The position numbers and the translations under genes are program-made. From a virus, in IMG/VR virus record IMGVR_UViG_3300035698_010335, positions 1 through 21,106 of that record: a stretch of 21,106 nt of DNA; one strand, 5' to 3'. Shown one piece after another: positions 3,008-15,922 of the stretch (its first letter is position 1; every line of letters begins with the position of its first letter). The notes under the pieces were generated by a model, which was not told where the DNA came from, did no database searches, and was given only the letters and a program-made list of their open reading frames with translations.

Positions 3008-3454
3008 TTACCGGACGGGTAGGCCCTTGTCCCGCCCCGCGAACAGCGGCGACCCACTGGCCCGCTGGATAGCATCCGCGGCGAGCTCGTGGCAAACCCC
3101 GTTCTCCTCGCCGGGGATGTGCTCCCACCGGATCGAGCGGAAACCCACCCGCAGCATCGCCGCCATGTTGTAGAGCCATCTCAGGTTGTGGGCTTTGCAC
3201 TTGGCCACCCCCTCACCGCATCGCAGCGCCAGCGTTGAGTCACCGCGGACCACGAGATCGCTGACGCCCCGGCTGGAGGCCAGTAGAAGGCCGTAGACCA
3301 TGCCCGCATATTCGGCCTCGTTGCAGGTGGCGGTTCCTATGAAGTGCCCCACGTTGTCCTGTCCGCTCCCGTGGACCAGCAGGCTCACCCCGAAGCTGGA
3401 CGGGCCGGGGTTTCCGTGCGAGCCCCCGTCGAACCACAGATTGCCTTTCATCAT
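3008..3454 (-). CDS. RNase H type I
   Basis: This 148-aa protein has the RNase HI fold. The first strand carries the catalytic Asp in LWFDGGSHGNPGP (D9), then the Glu in CNEAEYAG (E48), then the Asp in VRGDSTLAL (D72), then EHIPGEENGVCHELAADA near the C-terminus. The enzyme cuts RNA in RNA-DNA hybrids, for example primer removal in phage replication. The fourth acidic residue (D134 of the E. coli enzyme, in CDELA) is His here (H122). The ATG at 3452-3454 has AGAAAGGGAC upstream; a second ATG follows after one codon. The gene is the first on the leftward arm after the control region. Confidence 0.88.
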   Translation of the reverse strand: MMKGNLWFDGGSHGNPGPSSFGVSLLVHGSGQDNVGHFIGTATCNEAEYAGMVYGLLLASSRGVSDLVVRGDSTLALRCGEGVAKCKAHNLRWLYNMAAMLRVGFRSIRWEHIPGEENGVCHELAADAIQRASGSPLFAGRDKGLPVR

Positions 3455-3627
3455 CGTCCCTTTCTGCGTGTGCTACATGCGCTTGAGAACGAATGCGCAA
3501 CGGCTCCCTTGCTCGGCCTCGCCCATCCGTGTTCCCTCCCTCTGTCAGTGGGGGTGGGTGCCGGTCTCTCCTTCTTGTCTACTGTGGTTCTTAGTAGCGC
3601 AAGCTAGAAAGGGGTTGCCCAACGACC

Positions 3628-3651
3628 GCGCGCCTCAAGAATCGGGCGCGC
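3628..3651 (-). other. strong hairpin in the leftward leader
   Basis: GCGCGCC (3628-3634) and GGCGCGC (3645-3651) form a perfect 7-bp GC stem with a 10-base loop. It lies in the transcribed leader between the tRNA-like element and the RNase H gene. There is no U tract after it in either direction, so it is not a standard terminator. Confidence 0.5.
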
Positions 3652-3824
3652 ACTTCTGACATCAGGTGTAGGTTTCCGGTGGTGCATCGGCGGCTTGGGC
3701 TGGCTTACCCTTTCGGGGCGAGGTTGCCCTAACCATACCGACGACGACTTCCCGCGTGCGAAAGGTCCGGGTCCGAACAGGCTGCCCGGTTCCCGCCGTG
3801 GTATTGGAGCGTCGTGTCGGCTCG

Positions 3825-3846
3825 GCGCGTCATAACCCCGACGCGC
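3825..3846 (-). other. hairpin just 3' of the tRNA-like element
   Basis: GCGCGTC (3825-3831) and GACGCGC (3840-3846) make a perfect 7-bp stem with an 8-base loop. It starts nine bases beyond the 3' end of the tRNA-like element on the minus strand, where a processing or trailer hairpin would lie. No U tract follows. Confidence 0.5.
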
Positions 3847-3854
3847 TGGGGGAT

Positions 3855-3927
3855 AGAGGGGGGCGGGATTCGAACCCGCGAAGCCGGCCGATTCGGGCCG
3901 GAGGGCTACCAACAGCCCAACCCCGTC
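3855..3927 (-). tRNA. tRNA-like element, anticodon uncertain
   Basis: The 73-base cloverleaf on the minus strand has acceptor GACGGGG/CCCCCTC (6 of 7 pairs, one C-C mismatch), D stem GGGC/GCCC with TGTTGGTA loop, anticodon stem CCGGC/GCCGG, a 4-base variable loop and a canonical T arm GCGGG-TTCGAAT-CCCGC. The anticodon loop has eight bases (CCGAATCG) and no U at the position before the anticodon, so no identity can be given (GAA or CGA would be guesses). There is no encoded CCA. It is the first element after the leftward promoter at 4011-4039. It may be a decayed or atypical tRNA, or a tRNA-shaped processing signal. Confidence 0.55.
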
Positions 3928-4010
3928 AATGAGAACGGGCCGCCTTTCGGCGACCCGATTCCCAGCATGAACAACATGGACCGTTGAGGCCCGTTGATGT
4001 GCGAGGTCAT

Positions 4011-4039
4011 ATTGTACGGCTAGATTGTTCATGCGCCAA
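4011..4039 (-). promoter_or_regulatory. sigma70-like leftward promoter
   Basis: On the minus strand TTGGCG (4034-4039) is separated by exactly 17 bases from TACAAT (4011-4016), one mismatch from the consensus -10. Transcription would start near 4004 and read through the tRNA-like element into RNase H and the left arm. It sits just downstream of a leftward terminator, as expected for an insulated start. Confidence 0.6.
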
Positions 4040-4072
4040 GCATCATGGAGCAGGAATCCCACCGACCGCAAG

Positions 4073-4160: not shown

Positions 4161-4664
4161 ATGAAAGGGACGTTGGCCATATTCGCCGTCGCGTGTCTGC
4201 TGTTGGCCCCCCTTGCCGGATGCGGCTCCGAGACGATCACCGCATGGGCAGCCCGGGGCTCGGGAGGTACGTTCAACCAAGAGCACAACATCGACGAGTG
4301 GCACGCCCTCGCGCTGAGCTTCCTGGCCGAGCAGCGGCAAGCCGCGGTCGACGCCGCGTACTCGGACCTGCGGGCCGTCGTTGGCGGGGCGCTCAAGAAC
4401 GCCGATGGCACCCCGATCCCGCTGGACAGCCAGTATCTCATGGAGAGCCAAGTTGCCCTTCACATGAGCCTCAACGCGGTAGAGCAGAAGGTCAAGGCCA
4501 TCCGGGCGATGCGCGAGGACGACTACGCGAACGTCCGATCCACCCGCGAGGTTTTCGATAAGATCGCGCAACTCAACAAGCTATGGGTCGGCGCCGCCGA
4601 TGAATTGGGCCCGCAACTGGCCCGGATCGCCGCCGAACTCGCAGAACTTCGGAATGGAGACTGA
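4161..4664 (+). CDS. phage lipoprotein, 167 aa
   Basis: The N-terminus MKGTLAIFAVACLLLAPLAGC is a lipoprotein signal peptide with lipobox LAGC (Cys21). The mature part is soluble, mostly helical and heptad-like (DEWHALALSFLAEQRQAAVDAAYSDLRAVV, later LNAVEQKVKAIRAMREDD and ARIAAELAELRNGD), so a coiled coil is likely. ATG 4161 is chosen over upstream in-frame ATGs because of the signal peptide and GGGAG seven bases upstream. It is the first rightward gene, two bases before the next ATG. An outer-membrane spanin subunit or a superinfection-exclusion lipoprotein would fit; neither is proven. Confidence 0.7.
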   Translation: MKGTLAIFAVACLLLAPLAGCGSETITAWAARGSGGTFNQEHNIDEWHALALSFLAEQRQAAVDAAYSDLRAVVGGALKNADGTPIPLDSQYLMESQVALHMSLNAVEQKVKAIRAMREDDYANVRSTREVFDKIAQLNKLWVGAADELGPQLARIAAELAELRNGD

Positions 4665-4666
4665 CC

Positions 4667-4993
4667 ATGAGCGACGACACCACCACGGGCCAGCCGGATG
4701 CCCCTGATGAGCCGGACACGGCCCCAACCGTAGCCGTTACGGCCCAAGAGCAGCGGGACACCCTCACCGCGGCAATCGGCATCTCCTGGACCGACTTCGA
4801 GCGTCGGCACCCGGCGCAGGCAATGGCCTTCCAGAGAATCGTCAGGACGCCCGTGTCGGCGCTGATGAAAAAGCTCGAAGAAGGCCCCGAGTACGAGCAA
4901 CTGCTCGCCCAGACGGAGCAGTCGGCCAACCTCGGCAACCTCGTCACGGCCATAGACCCGATGATCATATCGATCATCGGCGCGGTCATATAG
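4667..4993 (+). CDS. hypothetical phage protein with hydrophobic C-terminus, 108 aa
   Basis: This 108-aa protein begins with an acidic, Thr/Pro/Asp-rich tail (about residues 1-25). A helical middle part follows (QRDTLTAAIGISWTDFERR and MKKLEEGPEYEQLLAQTEQ), and it ends in a hydrophobic stretch IDPMIISIIGAVI that could touch the membrane. The ATG lies two bases after the lipoprotein stop, with GGAGA upstream. It is not recognised. The trio of lipoprotein, this gene and the next small membrane gene looks like one transcription unit and could be lysis- or envelope-related. Confidence 0.6.
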   Translation: MSDDTTTGQPDAPDEPDTAPTVAVTAQEQRDTLTAAIGISWTDFERRHPAQAMAFQRIVRTPVSALMKKLEEGPEYEQLLAQTEQSANLGNLVTAIDPMIISIIGAVI

Positions 4994-5006
4994 AAAGGTC
5001 GGCACT

Positions 5007-5192
5007 ATGGATTGGCTGACTCAGAACATGAACGCCATCGTGGCGATCCTGCTCGCCCTGCACGGCCTCGCGGTCGTCATCGTGAATCTGACGCCCACGC
5101 CGGCCGACGACAAGGTTCTCGGCAAGGTCTACAAGCTGATCGAACTCATCGGTGGGCTCTGGACCAAGCGAGCCAAGGATCCGCCGCAGTAG
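5007..5192 (+). CDS. small membrane protein, 61 aa (holin-like?)
   Basis: A membrane segment spans about residues 8-27 (MNAIVAILLALHGLAVVIVN). The short NLTPTPADDKVLGKVYKLIELIGGLW region and a basic end follow. The LTPTPxDDxxxGKVYKxIE pattern resembles small one-helix proteins common in phages, some lying near lysis genes. The start is fixed by AGAAAGG eight bases upstream. Position after a lipoprotein gene makes a holin or pinholin role possible. Experimental or family evidence is lacking, so this remains a guess. Confidence 0.6.
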   Translation: MDWLTQNMNAIVAILLALHGLAVVIVNLTPTPADDKVLGKVYKLIELIGGLWTKRAKDPPQ

Positions 5193-5203
5193 CCGGACCC
5201 GTA

Positions 5204-5254
5204 GCGCCCGGGCGGGGTTCTCTCGTCCCCTTCCTCGTCCGGGCGCGAACTTTT
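5204..5254 (+). terminator. GC-rich hairpin with short T-rich tail
   Basis: GCGCCCGG (5204-5211) pairs perfectly with CCGGGCGC (5239-5246), and an inner GGGG/CCCC stem (5214-5217 with 5227-5230) closes a 9-base loop. TTTTCTTC follows from 5251. This could be a leaky terminator between the small membrane gene and the ASCH locus, or an RNase III-type processing site. Confidence 0.5.
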
Positions 5255-5270
5255 CTTCGAGGGGAGCACC

Positions 5271-5300
5271 ATGAGCGAGAGCGAGAACCGCCAGCCATGA
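5271..5300 (+). CDS. 9-codon minicistron (leader peptide MSESENRQP)
   Basis: ATG at 5271 follows a strong SD (GAGGGGAG, 5259-5266) at normal spacing. The frame is nine codons long and its stop (5298-5300) overlaps the ASCH-gene start (5297-5299) as ATGA. The ASCH gene has no other SD, and there is no alternative in-frame start near this SD. The minicistron therefore probably exists to feed ribosomes to the ASCH gene by coupling. Confidence 0.55.
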   Translation: MSESENRQP

Positions 5301-6331
5301 AAGACCATCCGATCTTATTCTCCGGCCCGATGGTTCGGTCCCTCTTGGATGGCAGAAAATCTCAGACGCGGCGCGTGATAAAAACCCAACCAGATGCCTT
5401 TTACCGCTTGACACCTGACCGGCTTATGGTATGCTATAGCCATGATAACCCTACCGAATGGCACGAAATTGAAACGGATACCGGAGTCTCCCAACGACGA
5501 CTACATGGCGGGCGACGATGGGAAGGTTTACTCTCGGACGCGGTACAAGGGCTTTGGGCGGAAGGACTACGTGGACTGGTATCCGCTCAAAGGATACATC
5601 ACGGCGAAGGGCTACAGGACGATCAGCTTGTCTCACAACAATCGGAAGGTGACGCGGCACATCCATCGTCTGATATGCTCAGCCTTCCACGGCCGCCCGC
5701 CGAAGAAGTCGATGCAGGTGCGGCATCTGGACGGCAATCCGAACAACAACAAGCCGGAGAACCTGCGGTGGGGGACGCGGGAAGAAAACTGGCTGGACCG
5801 GAAGCGTCACGGACGGGGCATCGAGGGAGAGAAGCATCCGATGTCAAAACTGACGGATGCCGAAGCGGAACATCTGCGGTGGGCGATCTCGACGGGCCTG
5901 TGCAGCCAACGCCACGCGGCCCGAATGCTTGGGATGTCGCAGGCGGGCGTCTATCACGTTGTCCATTTTCGGAAGGGCAACGCCTCTGGGTGAGGGAGGC
6001 TTTTCGTGGCCCGATCGGCGGCTATGTATACCGCGCTGACAATGACCCGCAATTTGAGGGCTGTAGATGGAAGCCCTCGATCCACATGCCCAAGTGGGCC
6101 GCTCGCATCTGGCTGGAAGTGACGGGCGTTCGCGTCGAGCGCGTGCAGGACATCAGCGAGGAAGATGCGATTGCGGAGGGTATCCCACGGGGCGCTGTCC
6201 AGTATTGCGGACACGCGATCCGGTTGTTTCGTGACCTGTGGGATTCCATCAACGCCAAGCGCGGCTACCCGTGGGAAGTCAACCCCTGGGTCTGGGTAGT
6301 GGAGTTCAAGCGAACGGAGACAATGACATGA
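5297..6331 (+). CDS. ASCH-domain phage protein, interrupted by a nested HNH gene
   Basis: The N-terminus (MKDHPILFSGPMVRSLLDGR, then KSQTRRVIKTQPD) and the C-terminal part, from RCPFSEGQRLWVREAF through KPSIHMPKWAARIWLEVTGV, DISEEDAIAEGI and WDSINAKRGYPW to NPWVWVVEFKR, match a common phage ASCH-family protein that normally has no large gap between these parts. Here about 170 extra codons lie between them, and the HNH gene 5442-5993 is read from the same DNA in another frame. The frame stays open through the insert, so a 344-aa product is formally possible, but its middle is Gly/Arg/Ser-rich and not protein-like. ASCH domains are PUA-like folds thought to bind RNA or modified nucleotides. It is translationally coupled to the leader peptide and to DUF5131. 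Confidence 0.7.
   Translation: MKDHPILFSGPMVRSLLDGRKSQTRRVIKTQPDAFYRLTPDRLMVCYSHDNPTEWHEIETDTGVSQRRLHGGRRWEGLLSDAVQGLWAEGLRGLVSAQRIHHGEGLQDDQLVSQQSEGDAAHPSSDMLSLPRPPAEEVDAGAASGRQSEQQQAGEPAVGDAGRKLAGPEASRTGHRGREASDVKTDGCRSGTSAVGDLDGPVQPTPRGPNAWDVAGGRLSRCPFSEGQRLWVREAFRGPIGGYVYRADNDPQFEGCRWKPSIHMPKWAARIWLEVTGVRVERVQDISEEDAIAEGIPRGAVQYCGHAIRLFRDLWDSINAKRGYPWEVNPWVWVVEFKRTETMT
5408..5435 (+). promoter_or_regulatory. sigma70-like promoter in front of the nested HNH gene
   Basis: Perfect -35 TTGACA (5408-5413), a 16-base spacer ending in an extended -10 TGG, and -10 TATGCT (5430-5435). The predicted start point (about 5442) coincides with the ATG of the HNH gene, so the transcript would be leaderless. 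The element lies inside the ASCH coding sequence. Confidence 0.6.
5442..5993 (+). CDS. HNH homing-type endonuclease (NUMOD4-HNH-HTH)
   Basis: Three parts are seen in 183 residues. The first is an N-terminal NUMOD4-like segment (KRIPESPNDDYMAGDDGKVYS, about 10-30). The second is an HNH core with HIHRLICSAFHG (about 74-85) and VRHLDGNPNNNKPENLRWGT (about 95-114). The third is a C-terminal DNA-binding helix-turn-helix (SKLTDAEAEHLRWAISTG, then SQRHAARMLGMSQAGVYHV). Such enzymes nick or cut specific DNA and spread their own gene. It lies in a different frame inside the ASCH gene, with its 3' end overlapping conserved ASCH codons. No SD precedes the ATG; a promoter at 5408-5435 would give a leaderless message. 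Base composition is visibly less GC-rich than its neighbours, consistent with transfer. Confidence 0.85.
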   Translation: MITLPNGTKLKRIPESPNDDYMAGDDGKVYSRTRYKGFGRKDYVDWYPLKGYITAKGYRTISLSHNNRKVTRHIHRLICSAFHGRPPKKSMQVRHLDGNPNNNKPENLRWGTREENWLDRKRHGRGIEGEKHPMSKLTDAEAEHLRWAISTGLCSQRHAARMLGMSQAGVYHVVHFRKGNASG

Positions 6332-7284
6332 GCCGAACACACATCGAATGGGTACAGGGCACCGGACGCGTCGGCGAGACGTGGAACCCGTATATCGGAT
6401 GCAGGCCGATCAGCGAGGGCTGCGAGAACTGCTGGGCCCGACGCGAGGAGGATGGCCGCTTCCGGCATCTGGCGCGATGCGTCCCGGTGATCGAGGGCAC
6501 GGGCGGAAAGCCCGGGGCCTGTGGATGGATCCTCGAGCCGCCGGGGGCTTACTTCGCACGCGGGCCGGTCTTTCAGGGCGAGGAGGTCCTCACGGCGCCG
6601 CTGCGGTGGAAAAAGCCGCGCGTGGCGTTCGTGTGCGCGCGGAGCGACCTGTTCCACGCCGACATCAGCGACGACGACCGCGACCGCATCTGGACCGTGA
6701 TGGCGCTGTGCCCGGATCACATCTTCATTGTGCTGACGAAGCGCGCCGAGCGGATGTGCGCGTATTTGGACGAGCTCCGAGGCAGTCGGCGCATAGGCCG
6801 CGCGTTTGGTTTCCTCTACGACCCAGGCAGGAATCTCTCGAATCAGGTTCTCGATGCAGTGCCAACTGCTCGGTTCGCGCTGGAGGGTATCCACAGGGGC
6901 GAGCCGCTGCCCAACGTCGTGCTGATGGTCACTGCGGAGAATCAGGCCCGGGCGGATGAGCGGATCCCGCGGCTGCTGGAAACGCCCGCCGCCTGCCGCG
7001 GCGTGTCCATCGAGCCCATGCTCGGCCCGGTGGACGCGACGCCGTGGCTCGACCGCCTCGACTGGGTCATCGTTGGCGGAGAGAGCGGCCCCGGCGCGCG
7101 GCGCATGCACCCCGTCTGGGTTGGCGCTGTGGTCGATCAATCCGCCTTCGCCGACATCGCCTTCTTCTTCAAGCAGTGGGGGCGCTTCGACGAGAACGGC
7201 CGACCTGTCGGGAAGAAAAAGGCCGGGCGTACGCTCGACGGACGAAACCACGACGGACTGCCGGCACTGCTGGCCAAGGAATAA
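6328..7284 (+). CDS. DUF5131 protein (phage Gp37/Gp68 family), three-Cys motif
   Basis: This 318-aa protein has the family's N-terminal TWNPYIGCRPISEGCENCWA with Cys25, Cys32 and Cys35. It is followed by PLRWKKPRVAFVCARSDLFH, VLTKRAERM, PNVVLMVTAENQ, RGVSIEPMLGPVD, DWVIVGGESGPGARRMHP and FFFKQWG, all in the expected order. The family is linked to radical-SAM-like chemistry by its Cys triad and is named as the partner of TcmP in other genomes. Its substrate is unknown. Here it overlaps the ASCH gene as ATGA and no TcmP is adjacent. The length is normal for the family and all visible motifs are intact. Confidence 0.88.
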   Translation: MSRTHIEWVQGTGRVGETWNPYIGCRPISEGCENCWARREEDGRFRHLARCVPVIEGTGGKPGACGWILEPPGAYFARGPVFQGEEVLTAPLRWKKPRVAFVCARSDLFHADISDDDRDRIWTVMALCPDHIFIVLTKRAERMCAYLDELRGSRRIGRAFGFLYDPGRNLSNQVLDAVPTARFALEGIHRGEPLPNVVLMVTAENQARADERIPRLLETPAACRGVSIEPMLGPVDATPWLDRLDWVIVGGESGPGARRMHPVWVGAVVDQSAFADIAFFFKQWGRFDENGRPVGKKKAGRTLDGRNHDGLPALLAKE

Positions 7285-7287
7285 CTT

Positions 7288-9726
7288 ATGCCGCAGCGCG
7301 TCATGGATGACAGCCTCTACACCGACGAGGAGGCCCTGGAACGCGAGGCCCAGTCCGAGGGCATCGCACGCTACCGGATGCTGGTGGACAAGGCCGTCGA
7401 GCGGGGCGACGGGCCGCAACTCAAGGCCGTCGAACGACTGATCCTCCACTGGTTCGAGCCCCTGCGCCGCCTCATCGCCGCCGAGAAGCGGTCCATCCGA
7501 AAGGGCATCCCCGGCGTGGGGCGGATGCACGCCGGCCCGGTCATCCTCCAGTTCAACTCCTCGCACCTGGCGCTGGCCACGCTCCACGAGACGATGAACC
7601 TGATGCTCACCGAACCCGATGGCGTGACCCCCGTGCGGCTGTCAATGGCCATCGCCCGGGCCCTGAACGCCCAAGCCAACTACAAAGAGATGCGCGGCAA
7701 GCACAACGCCGCGAAGCGGAAGTGGAAAAGGGCGGGCTGCCCGGGCCGGTTCTACGAGGAGACCTGGGATGCACTGGTCCACACCGACAGGCGACGGATC
7801 ACGGTCGAGAACACCAACCGCGTTGCTGCCCGCTTCATGCCCGACTCCCGCTGGTCCCCGCAGGCCCAGGCCGCCGTCGGCGGAACGCTGCTGCATCTCT
7901 TGGATCGGGTCGCCACCGTCGAGGACTACGACAAGCCGCGGGAGCCCGCGTTCTACAAGTTCAAGCGGATCATCACCAAGCATGCGGCCTGGATATGGAA
8001 GCTCTCCTACACCGCACAGAAGGTCATCCACGACGGCCACGAGTTCCGCAAGCTGCTGAATCCCCGCTACCTGCCGATGGTTGTGCCGCCTCTGCAGTGG
8101 ACGCCGAAGGACATCGGGGGGTATCTCATCATCCCGACGCACCTGTACAAGCGGACGGAACGCCACGAGATCGGAGCCGAGGAAAACCCCGTGCTGCTCG
8201 AAGCCGTCAACGCGATCAACTCGACGCCCTGGCGAATCAACCGCTTCGTGTTCGACATCGTGCAGGAGCTCGGCGCCGCCGGCGGCAACATCGCGGGCAT
8301 CCCGCAACTTCACCCGCTGGAGTTCCCGGACCGGCCGAAGGAATGGTACAAGGGCAGTCCCGAACGGGCCAATTGGAAGAAGAAGGCGAGCTACATCATC
8401 CGCCGCAACCGCGAGATCGCCAGCGGCGCCAAGAGTTTCAGCATCCGCCAGTACATCGCAGAGCGGATGGAGGGCTACGGGCGGTTCTGGTTCCCGCACC
8501 AGCTCGACTTCCGGTGCCGGATCTACCCGGTCCCCGTGCTGTTCCACCAGCAGGGCGACGACGCGAGCCGTGGGATGCTCGAGTTCGCCGATCCCGTCGA
8601 TGCGTCCGGGCCCGATGCCAAGCGATGGCTGCGGATTCACATGGCGAACCGCTGCGGGCAGGACAAGCTCACCTTCGACGAGCGGATCGAGTGGGTCGAC
8701 GACAACATGGAGATTTTTGCTGGGTGGATCGAGAAACCCCTTGAAAACACTGGATGGATGGAGGTCGACGACCCCTTCCAGTCTCTCGCCGCCGCGCAGG
8801 CCCTTCTGGACCCCGAGGCCGCGGCCCACCTTCCCACGCAGATCGACGGGACCAACAACGCCCTGCAGCACTACGCGGCCATGCTGCGCTGCGAGGACGC
8901 CGCGGCAAAGGTCAACGTCATCCCCACGGATCGGCCACACGACTTCTACGCGGACGTGGCCGGCCGAACGGAGGGCTTGGTGGGTCGAGACGCCGACGCC
9001 GCCAAGAAGCTCGCACAGAGCCTTGAGGGCTTCATCACACGCAAGCTCGTCAAGCATACGGCGATGACGAACTACTACGGCGTCACCCGCGTCGGGGCCC
9101 GCCGGCAGATGTACGCGAATCTCCAGGAGGCGGGATTCCTTCTCGATGAACTCTACCCGGCGTCGAAGTACATGGCCCGGGTGGTCATGGAGGCGACCGC
9201 CCACGAATGCCCGAGCGTGGACGCGGCGCTGCAGTGGATCAAGAACTGCACCCGCAAGATCGTCCGCAAGGGGAACATCCTCGCATGGCGGAACCCGTTG
9301 GGCGTGACGATCGAGCAGCCCTACCGGAACCAGCGGTCCATCCGTGTCTACACGCCCTTTGGAAGCCTGAGCCTTGGCTGGCAGGACAAGACGTGCCCTC
9401 CGGCCAACATCAAGCAGACGAACGCCAGCGCCCCGAACTTCGTGCATTCGGTGGACTCGGCCCATCTGCTCTGCGTGGCGCTGGCCTGTCACGACGAGGG
9501 CATCAGATTCGGCGGGATCCACGACGCGATCATGGCTCATGCGGCCAACATGAGCCGCACCGCCCAGATCGTCCGCGATCAATTCTGCTACATCCACGAG
9601 ACCCCGCTGCTGGACCGCCTCGCCGCCGACTGGAACGAGCGCTACGGCATCAAGCTCCCTCCCCCGCCGCCGACTGGGAATCTGGACGTTGGCCGAGCCG
9701 CGAAGTCGGAATACCTGTTTCAATGA
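7288..9726 (+). CDS. T7-type single-subunit DNA-directed RNA polymerase
   Basis: This 812-aa enzyme transcribes phage promoters without host subunits. Catalytic Asp520 lies in QIDGTNNALQHYAAMLR. Arg585, Lys589 and Tyr597 are in RKLVKHTAMTNYYG with the same spacing as T7 R627/K631/Y639. The second catalytic Asp is D745 in FGGIHDAIMAHAAN, preceded by SAPNFVHSVDSAHL (714-727). DFRCRIYPV (407-415) and the region around 665-695 correspond to the template-binding and promoter-specificity parts. The C-terminus SEYLFQ plays the part of the T7 'foot'. It is shorter than T7 (883 aa) and close to phiKMV-type enzymes. An AAGGA site precedes ATG 7288. It lies immediately upstream of the virion genes. Confidence 0.97.
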   Translation: MPQRVMDDSLYTDEEALEREAQSEGIARYRMLVDKAVERGDGPQLKAVERLILHWFEPLRRLIAAEKRSIRKGIPGVGRMHAGPVILQFNSSHLALATLHETMNLMLTEPDGVTPVRLSMAIARALNAQANYKEMRGKHNAAKRKWKRAGCPGRFYEETWDALVHTDRRRITVENTNRVAARFMPDSRWSPQAQAAVGGTLLHLLDRVATVEDYDKPREPAFYKFKRIITKHAAWIWKLSYTAQKVIHDGHEFRKLLNPRYLPMVVPPLQWTPKDIGGYLIIPTHLYKRTERHEIGAEENPVLLEAVNAINSTPWRINRFVFDIVQELGAAGGNIAGIPQLHPLEFPDRPKEWYKGSPERANWKKKASYIIRRNREIASGAKSFSIRQYIAERMEGYGRFWFPHQLDFRCRIYPVPVLFHQQGDDASRGMLEFADPVDASGPDAKRWLRIHMANRCGQDKLTFDERIEWVDDNMEIFAGWIEKPLENTGWMEVDDPFQSLAAAQALLDPEAAAHLPTQIDGTNNALQHYAAMLRCEDAAAKVNVIPTDRPHDFYADVAGRTEGLVGRDADAAKKLAQSLEGFITRKLVKHTAMTNYYGVTRVGARRQMYANLQEAGFLLDELYPASKYMARVVMEATAHECPSVDAALQWIKNCTRKIVRKGNILAWRNPLGVTIEQPYRNQRSIRVYTPFGSLSLGWQDKTCPPANIKQTNASAPNFVHSVDSAHLLCVALACHDEGIRFGGIHDAIMAHAANMSRTAQIVRDQFCYIHETPLLDRLAADWNERYGIKLPPPPPTGNLDVGRAAKSEYLFQ

Positions 9727-15100: not shown

Positions 15101-15922
15101 ATGTTTGACAGGGTTCTTGTAGTCAACCTGGACCGGCGGCCTGACCGGCTCGAAGCGTTCAATGAGCGTTTCGGCCGGTCGGGCTGGCCGTTCCTGACAC
15201 CGGAACGTGTCCGAGCCGTCGATGCCACGAACATGGGCAAGCCCAAGTGGTTTCGGCAGGCTCTCGGCGCGTGGGCCTGCTCGCAGACGTACATCCGCAT
15301 TTTCGAGGACGCGATGCAGGATGGCATAGACAGTCTTTTCGTTTTCGAGGACGATGCGCTGTTCTGCAACGACTTTGCGGACAGGCTGGACGACTTCACC
15401 GAGGAGCTACCCGACGATTGGGATGCGATCTACCTCGGCGGGATTCTTCGCGGCTTCAAGGACAACCCGCCCATCCGGCTCGGCAAGTCGTGTCACCGCA
15501 TCCCTCAGATCACCGGCACCTATGCAACGGCCTACCGGCTGGGGTTCCTCAAGCGGTTCTACGAGTGGTACTGGAGCCTCCCGCGGAACGACCTTTTGGG
15601 TGTCTTTGATGCTTCTTTGGCGAGCTTCCAGGCGCACAGGGACTGCAACATCTACGGGCCGATGCCCTGGCTGTGCGGCCACGCCAGCGGAACGAGCGAC
15701 ATCAATGATCGCTCCTACACACGGGACCACTTCTTCAACTACGACGGAAAGACGGTGGAGTGTCAGGCCGACATCGGGGCCATCGTCAACGGGCGAATCG
15801 TCCGTCCCCTGATGAAGATCAAGGTCGTCGGCGGCAAGCATCCCGGCGAGGTACGCTTCGGCAAGGAACCGACAGCACAAGAACTGATTGGAGTTGCACA
15901 TGGCGCGGAAGCCGAGGAGTGA
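15101..15922 (+). CDS. family-25-like glycosyltransferase
   Basis: This 273-aa protein has the start FDRVLVVNLDRRPDRLEAF and the acidic metal-binding strand SLFVFEDDALFCND (EDD at 83-85), with AIYLGGI and GTYATAYRLGFLKRFY further on. These match glycosyltransferase family 25 enzymes, which transfer sugars to LPS or proteins using a divalent metal. The gene lies among virion genes, so it may glycosylate a capsid, decoration or tail protein, or modify host surface sugars. The ATG is four bases after the previous stop and lacks a strong SD, so it is probably coupled. Its 3' end overlaps the next gene by 23 bases. Confidence 0.8.
   Translation: MFDRVLVVNLDRRPDRLEAFNERFGRSGWPFLTPERVRAVDATNMGKPKWFRQALGAWACSQTYIRIFEDAMQDGIDSLFVFEDDALFCNDFADRLDDFTEELPDDWDAIYLGGILRGFKDNPPIRLGKSCHRIPQITGTYATAYRLGFLKRFYEWYWSLPRNDLLGVFDASLASFQAHRDCNIYGPMPWLCGHASGTSDINDRSYTRDHFFNYDGKTVECQADIGAIVNGRIVRPLMKIKVVGGKHPGEVRFGKEPTAQELIGVAHGAEAEE

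Follow-up and report, generated by a model that had tools for sequence, protein, structure and literature searches.

The window, that is, the whole stretch of DNA analysed here, is the virus record of 21106 bases and carries a T7-like gene set. Besides an RNA polymerase gene, this set includes genes for a head-tail connector, a capsid assembly protein and a major head protein as well as tail genes; the head genes are separated from the tail genes by a gene resembling glycosyltransferase family 25 (15101-15922; Pfam 5e-8). The locus described below consists of an ORF encoding an ASCH-fold protein and, nested within it in another reading frame, a second ORF encoding an HNH homing-type endonuclease (Table 1). 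A 9-codon mini-ORF, MSESENRQP, preceded by GAGGGGAG, is present at 5271-5300, and its TGA overlaps the ASCH start codon, so that translation of the ASCH gene may be coupled at both ends, through the mini-ORF upstream and the ATGA overlap downstream.

Table 1. Features of the interrupted ASCH locus and its surroundings in the window.
Feature	Position	Strand	Basis or remark
ASCH-fold protein, outer ORF (344 aa if read through)	5297..6331	+	phrog_874 match, AlphaFold2 model, VIA-align
ASCH gene, left conserved part (MKDHPILFSGPMVRSLLDGRKSQTRRVIKTQP)	5297..5392	+	Alignment with uninterrupted relatives
Probable moved segment (promoter and HNH gene)	5402..5980 (borders approximate)	+	TACCGCTTGAC common to L023/L101; host resumes at RLWVREA
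Sigma-70-like promoter, TTGACA-16-TATGCT with TG extension	5408..5435	+	Promoter scoring; ends 6 bp before the HNH start codon
HNH homing-type endonuclease gene (183 aa)	5442..5993	+	+1 offset relative to the ASCH frame; Pfam HNH_3
ASCH gene, right part (RLWVREA to stop)	5981..6331	+	Alignment with uninterrupted relatives
ATGA overlap (ASCH stop/start of next gene)	6328..6331	+	Next gene is DUF5131 (6328-7284)
RNA polymerase gene	7288-9726		T7-like context

As a whole, the 344-aa product of the outer ORF matched the PHROG family phrog_874 with E 8e-60; the match falls into two stretches, the better one covering residues 218-342. A Pfam search with the same protein gave no ASCH match by sequence. 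An AlphaFold2 model of this product, built from 47 proteins, had block-mean pLDDT values of 88-93 for residues 1-30 and 76-97 for residues 221-344, and the part in the middle was modelled with low confidence (32-66). VIA-align superposed the model on the ASCH domain 3s9x (Z 12.2, 116 residues, rmsd 2.3) and on E. coli YqfB (Z 11.8), in the latter case aligning 101 of 102 residues across the insert. A Foldseek search with the model returned no PDB match at E <= 0.001 (best 1.6e-3), with 3s9x and YqfB among the first three entries. According to the model, the two ends of the outer ORF fold as an ASCH protein (YqfB fold, ASCH/PUA-like), and the predicted ASCH core still folds despite the insert. 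One phage relative (H130) is annotated as an ASCH domain-containing N4-acetylcytidine amidohydrolase. The host protein of the window is thus alike in fold to YqfB and the ASCH domain proteins, but the phage family phrog_874 differs from them in having long loops, and its ASCH activity is putative.

As the preliminary description had proposed, we aligned the protein with uninterrupted relatives. Those with a recognised start were 196-259 aa long (n = 49; 34 of 115 loci were left unparsed) and had no counterpart of the middle part of the window protein; at its insert position, uninterrupted relatives from viral contigs carried, by eye, about 20-50 variable residues. An alignment of 47 proteins, 6 of them interrupted, contained fifteen residues without any variation, including K21, T24, R25, R26 and W333, so that ASCH itself is probably still under selection. 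One phage contig (L008) contains two different ASCH-like genes nearly in tandem, at 2197-2940 and 3311-4048 (the first judged by eye).

The inner ORF matched Pfam HNH_3 with an E value of 2e-15, and H95, N102 and N107, which we take to include catalytic residues, were invariant in the 8 aligned HNH members. A profile of this HNH family found one PDB match at E <= 0.01, the homing endonuclease 1u3e (E 1.3e-9), with profile positions 52-177 matching residues 32-158 of the 1u3e chain. This enzyme is I-HmuI, an HNH homing endonuclease (name from PMC11855218).

We then collected relatives of the locus. Among the best 80 of 598 relatives considered in a scan with the ASCH alignment, the ASCH match spanned about 1.2 kb in L021, L022 and L023; L021 and L023 carry an out-of-frame homolog of the window HNH gene, and L022 is identical to L021 there. 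Scans with the HNH alignment added L099, L100, L101, L107 and L108, then L112, L114, L115 and L116, as well as L118 from a Syntrophaceae MAG contig. These alignment queries did better than the single-sequence HNH scan of viral contigs and the first genome-contig scan, neither of which found a relative. Redundant loci were dropped, namely L102 (contig of L023), L103 (contig of L021) and L104 (contig of L022), together with L022, L105, L106 and L113, which did not differ over the compared stretch from L021, L103, L107 and L112, respectively. The copies of L021, L023, L107 and L112, considered as near-identical pairs for a selection test, proved to be fully identical and are therefore uninformative. 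This left 13 distinct lineages with close HNH homologs, the window and 12 others. In HNH identity to the window, the 7 aligned lineages range from 54 to 70%, and the five added later from 61 to 67% over the best segment. ASCH sequence was found around or beside the HNH gene in all 13. In 12 of them, that is, in the window and 11 further lineages, it matched on both sides, and L114 retained a C-terminal remnant of about 27 residues only. Together with the uninterrupted relatives, these loci bear out the initial view of an HNH gene nested out of frame in an ASCH gene. Weaker HNH matches (L109, L110, L111 and L117; 31-37% identity) had no ASCH match.

Several carriers depart from the common layout. 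L108, the most divergent of the 8 aligned HNH members, has an ASCH gene that is simply split. In L101, the ASCH start region (2743-2922) is in a different frame from the remainder, so that a frameshift, either true damage or an assembly error, separates the ASCH start from the HNH gene. L114 (2739-3623) is an eroded carrier that has retained the HNH gene and the open frame, with ATGA overlaps at both ends, and the inner start of L116 is uncertain, so this gene was analysed from a CTG. The interrupted ASCH ORF of L099 (2763-4370) spans at least 536 aa and has another long C-terminal loop region besides the HNH gene.

The borders of the insert had initially been placed near 5440 and 5959. That conserved ASCH sequence lies on both sides was upheld, but the positions were not: on the left, conservation extends to 5392 (..TRRVIKTQP), and the safe host restart is RLWVREA at 5981-6001. 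RCPFSEG is doubtful as the right-hand border, and, judged by eye, its 'RCPF' may consist of HNH codons read in the other frame, since 'CP' is also present in L101, where the insert is located elsewhere. In agreement with the preliminary description, the last HNH codons re-use ASCH DNA, positions 5982-5993 serving both as the end of the HNH gene (ASG) plus its stop codon (TGA, 5991-5993) and as host codons for LWVR; in L021 and L107, too, the HNH gene ends in ..SG and a stop on the host LWVR codons. A terminator-like site occurs at 5982-6000, but 13 such sites were found against 9.5 in shuffles, and we claim no terminator. On the left side, TACCGCTTGAC near 5402 recurs at another insertion site in L023 and L101, and the moved segment probably starts there.

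By eye, the insertions fall into three configurations. In the window, L099, L100, L112, L115, L116 and L118, the insert begins a short way past the TRR block and ends at LWVRE; in L021 and L107, the interruption is near CPYGxPGDRL/LWVRE; and in L023 and L101, which form a supported clade on the HNH tree (99/99), it lies between LYR and RPSI. The uninterrupted relatives are many but distant, and the insert borders fall in a variable loop. A near-identical empty allele was not found; the uninterrupted gene nearest to that of the window, in L004, is 72% identical over 83 C-terminal columns.

Could the HNH gene be carried by a self-splicing intron that escaped recognition? I-HmuI, the PDB relative of the HNH protein, is an intron-encoded enzyme, in contrast to the situation at the window locus, where no intron was found. 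The HNH gene fills nearly the whole insert and leaves little room for an intron core, as had been noted from the sequence for a group I core, and a search of 4900-6900 against Rfam gave no match (E <= 1), to a group I or II intron core RNA or otherwise. Moreover, an open host frame, which would be needless under splicing, is present in 12 of 13 lineages. An intron is thus very unlikely.

An inner promoter had also been proposed for the HNH gene. The sequence TTGACA-16-TG.TATGCT stands 6 bp upstream of the inner ATG of the window; as generic scanning of 15 kb for promoters gave 4 sites against 2.1 expected, this site alone proves little. Comparison across the family strengthened the proposal. 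A promoter-like score of at least 9 was reached upstream of the HNH gene in 9 of the 13 HNH loci (the window, L099, L101, L023, L108, L114, L115, L116 and L118) but at the matching place in only 1 of 60 uninterrupted ASCH genes (Fisher P 7e-8, base composition being unmatched), and a score of at least 10 in 6/13 and 0/60, respectively. Eight of these nine scores were reached by <= 0.6% of shuffles of the locus's own sequence, whereas the 9 of L118 was reached by 17.6%; the remaining carriers (L100, L021, L107 and L112) scored 6 to 8. Shine-Dalgarno matches before the inner start were poor, with at most 4 of 6 positions matching in 10 of 13 lineages and 5 or 6 only in L023, L101 and L108, suggesting that the inner starts of the other carriers are likely leaderless or translationally coupled. 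With its promoter so close to the start codon, the HNH mRNA of the window may be nearly leaderless.

The ASCH frame, which begins at the third base of the HNH codons, is free of stop codons through the HNH gene in 12 of the 13 lineages, and its frame relation to the HNH gene is the same in all 12. We compared this with a synonymous null in which the HNH protein was fixed and codons were drawn from the gene's own usage (20000 draws). The expected number of host-frame stops was 4.5-10.3 per open lineage, and for the window 4.2-6.9 were expected across three nulls. The share of draws lacking a stop was 0 in L099, L114 and L118, 5e-5 in L100, 1.5e-4 in L101, 2e-4 in L023, 4.5e-4 in L112, 0.0018 in L116, 0.002 in the window, 0.0068 in L115, 0.0071 in L021 and 0.0073 in L107. 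When codon usage was taken instead from the locus's other ORFs, as was done for 8 of the 13 lineages (7 of them open), the P values were equal or smaller (7.5e-4 for the window), and permutation of codons within the gene gave P(0) <= 0.019. Conversely, the second alternative frame contained stops as expected in 13 of 13 lineages (P(<= observed) 0.11 to 0.96), and five HNH genes that are not nested in this way had 2-28 stops per alternative frame, again as expected (lowest P 0.15). L108, with its split host gene, has 26 stops in the frame that is open elsewhere and 13 in the frame used by its ASCH pieces. The lineages share ancestry, and their probabilities are therefore not to be freely multiplied; at HNH identities of 54-70%, synonymous sites should nevertheless be largely scrambled. 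The frame had been described as one that merely happens to remain open. It is open indeed, but stop avoidance across lineages indicates selection on the open frame, not mere chance.

It is extremely unlikely, then, that the ASCH gene is dead and its open frame an accident of GC-rich DNA. The window is indeed GC-rich, and some carriers (L101, L114 and L108) are damaged; yet the synonymous nulls reject chance openness in 12 lineages, HNH genes of 42-51% GC among them, and the other frame and the five other HNH genes behave ordinarily. Selection might instead act on the peptide that the insert encodes in the host frame, as a functional domain. Host-frame identity among the 12 open carriers was 0.315, against 0.284 in codon shuffles with stops excluded, a value that none of 200 shuffles reached; but the control frame, that is, the other alternative frame, showed a comparable excess (0.331 against 0.292), which shared ancestry explains, and the poorly modelled insert also argues against a domain, which we regard as quite improbable. 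The host-frame peptides look like filler, no more conserved than the control frame, and it seems to be the absence of stops that is selected. For the same reasons, removal of the insert by intein-like protein splicing is hardly conceivable: the open frame does run continuously through both sides, but the insert lacks confident structure and its peptides exceed the control frame in no way, and no intein or Hint family appeared among the Pfam matches at E <= 1.

A more substantial alternative, itself compatible with a homing gene, is that openness preserves translation through the operon rather than ASCH activity. Since the ASCH stop overlaps the start of the next gene, ribosomes would have to reach it, and polarity would follow if a stretch were left untranslated. 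Of the 11 open carriers whose data include the host stop (those of L099 do not), 9 have a 4-base overlap of this stop with the start of an ORF of at least 60 aa, against 26 of 61 uninterrupted genes (Fisher P 0.018, or 0.031 without L118, whose ASCH end contains Ns). L114 fits this explanation as well: although its ASCH gene is nearly gone, the frame through its HNH gene is open (0 stops against 9.1 expected), beginning, by eye, at an ATG that overlaps the stop of the upstream gene and ending in ATGA at the next ORF. Against it stand the 15 residues that interrupted and uninterrupted proteins share, the open frames of L100 and L101, which have no overlap, and the shortness of 4 of the 9 next ORFs (68-79 aa), which may not be genes. 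On balance, we consider operon translation a possible but rather doubtful sole cause; ASCH activity and operon translation may both act in keeping the frame open.

The analysis thus establishes that the HNH gene is nested, in which frame relation, that it avoids host-frame stops, that promoter-like sites are enriched, that it recurs in ASCH genes and that the predicted ASCH core still folds. Together, these results make it likely that the nested gene is a homing gene whose host frame can be read through. In the scenario that we favour, a homing endonuclease gene comprising a promoter and an HNH ORF related to I-HmuI would have moved into phage ASCH genes, into variable loops adjoining conserved ASCH blocks, and would owe its persistence to codons that create no stop in the frame of the host gene. 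Ribosomes starting at the ASCH start codon would read through to give a long ASCH protein, its fold interrupted by ~170-190 low-confidence residues, and ribosomes starting at the inner start codon, on mRNA from the inner promoter or on ASCH mRNA, would produce the nuclease. ASCH genes without an insert would presumably be cut by the nuclease, and their repair, with the interrupted copy as template, would spread the element; the long protein may retain ASCH activity. The three insertion configurations, the promoter-like sites and the similarity to I-HmuI suggest a homing gene that is transparent to host-gene translation.

HNH base composition differs from that of the locus in some carriers (0.57 against 0.45 in L112; 0.51 against 0.62 in L114), and carriers are scattered on the ASCH tree, with 9 changes against a shuffled mean of 10.4, at least 3 of them forced by starred branches (few columns, unsettled bootstrap). 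L099, whose end did not fit the search pattern, and L114 were in neither ASCH tree, and L108 and L118 were in the first only. Because an AU test did not reject a single carrier clade (p 0.14), the trees do not prove repeated invasion.

A parasite gene can thus probably live inside a host gene without breaking it. What had been reported as a curiosity of mycobacteriophages becomes a principle open to testing: stop avoidance over many lineages indicates selection on two overlapping frames in a mobile element. With one split carrier and 12 open ones, of which one is eroded, the 13 lineages form a natural series in which to ask how a parasite gene spares its host gene, and whether it is the read-through protein or the operon coupling that is preserved. 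They also carry a warning for annotation, since a single long protein is readily called at such loci and the nuclease overlooked. We lean towards regarding the element as a third lifestyle of homing genes besides introns and inteins: a translationally transparent element in which selection on synonymous codons maintains an open host frame. Its family would have specialised on the ASCH genes of phages and would bring along a host-type promoter of its own, written into both frames.

Free-standing homing endonucleases are known to split genes, as mobE does in Aeh1 nrdA and mobA in T4 gene 60 (PMC2988022). There, too, a homing endonuclease gene lies within a coding region, and L108 has that layout; but the host gene of those systems becomes two polypeptides, whereas the frame through the HNH gene is open in 12 of 13 lineages here. 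The closest parallel is the ShiLan domain, described in 2025 (PMC11855218, which has a predecessor in PMC9957025) as an HNH hidden inside the methylase of a mycobacteriophage; another out-of-frame HNH in a methylase is reported in a genome note (PMC12613952). In phage ShiLan (L119, JN020143.1), an annotated HNH gene, gp64 (4433-4789), lies directly before the methylase gene that holds the hidden HNH. In both systems, an HNH gene sits in another frame inside a phage gene, the host frame stays open through the insert and, on the ShiLan side according to PMC11855218, there is no intron or intein signature and the insert is modelled with poor confidence. Our stop test, applied to the ShiLan region, gave 0 stops against 2.5-3.2 expected (P 0.025-0.042). 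By its nesting and by the stop-free host frame, the window thus holds a hidden HNH of the ShiLan kind, but not the ShiLan HNH itself: the two HNH sequences are weakly related by BLASTP (28.7% over 87 aa, E 7e-6), the ShiLan HNH has flanking zinc fingers whereas that of the window holds only two cysteines, each single, and the HNH offset is 2 there, with a GTG start, and 1 here. The words ASCH and promoter do not occur in the main text of PMC11855218, and our literature search did not find the ASCH family, its frame relation, its promoter or the strength of its stop avoidance. The kind of arrangement is therefore already known from ShiLan, while the host gene (ASCH instead of a methylase), the HNH subfamily and the frame relation differ and the statistics are far stronger.
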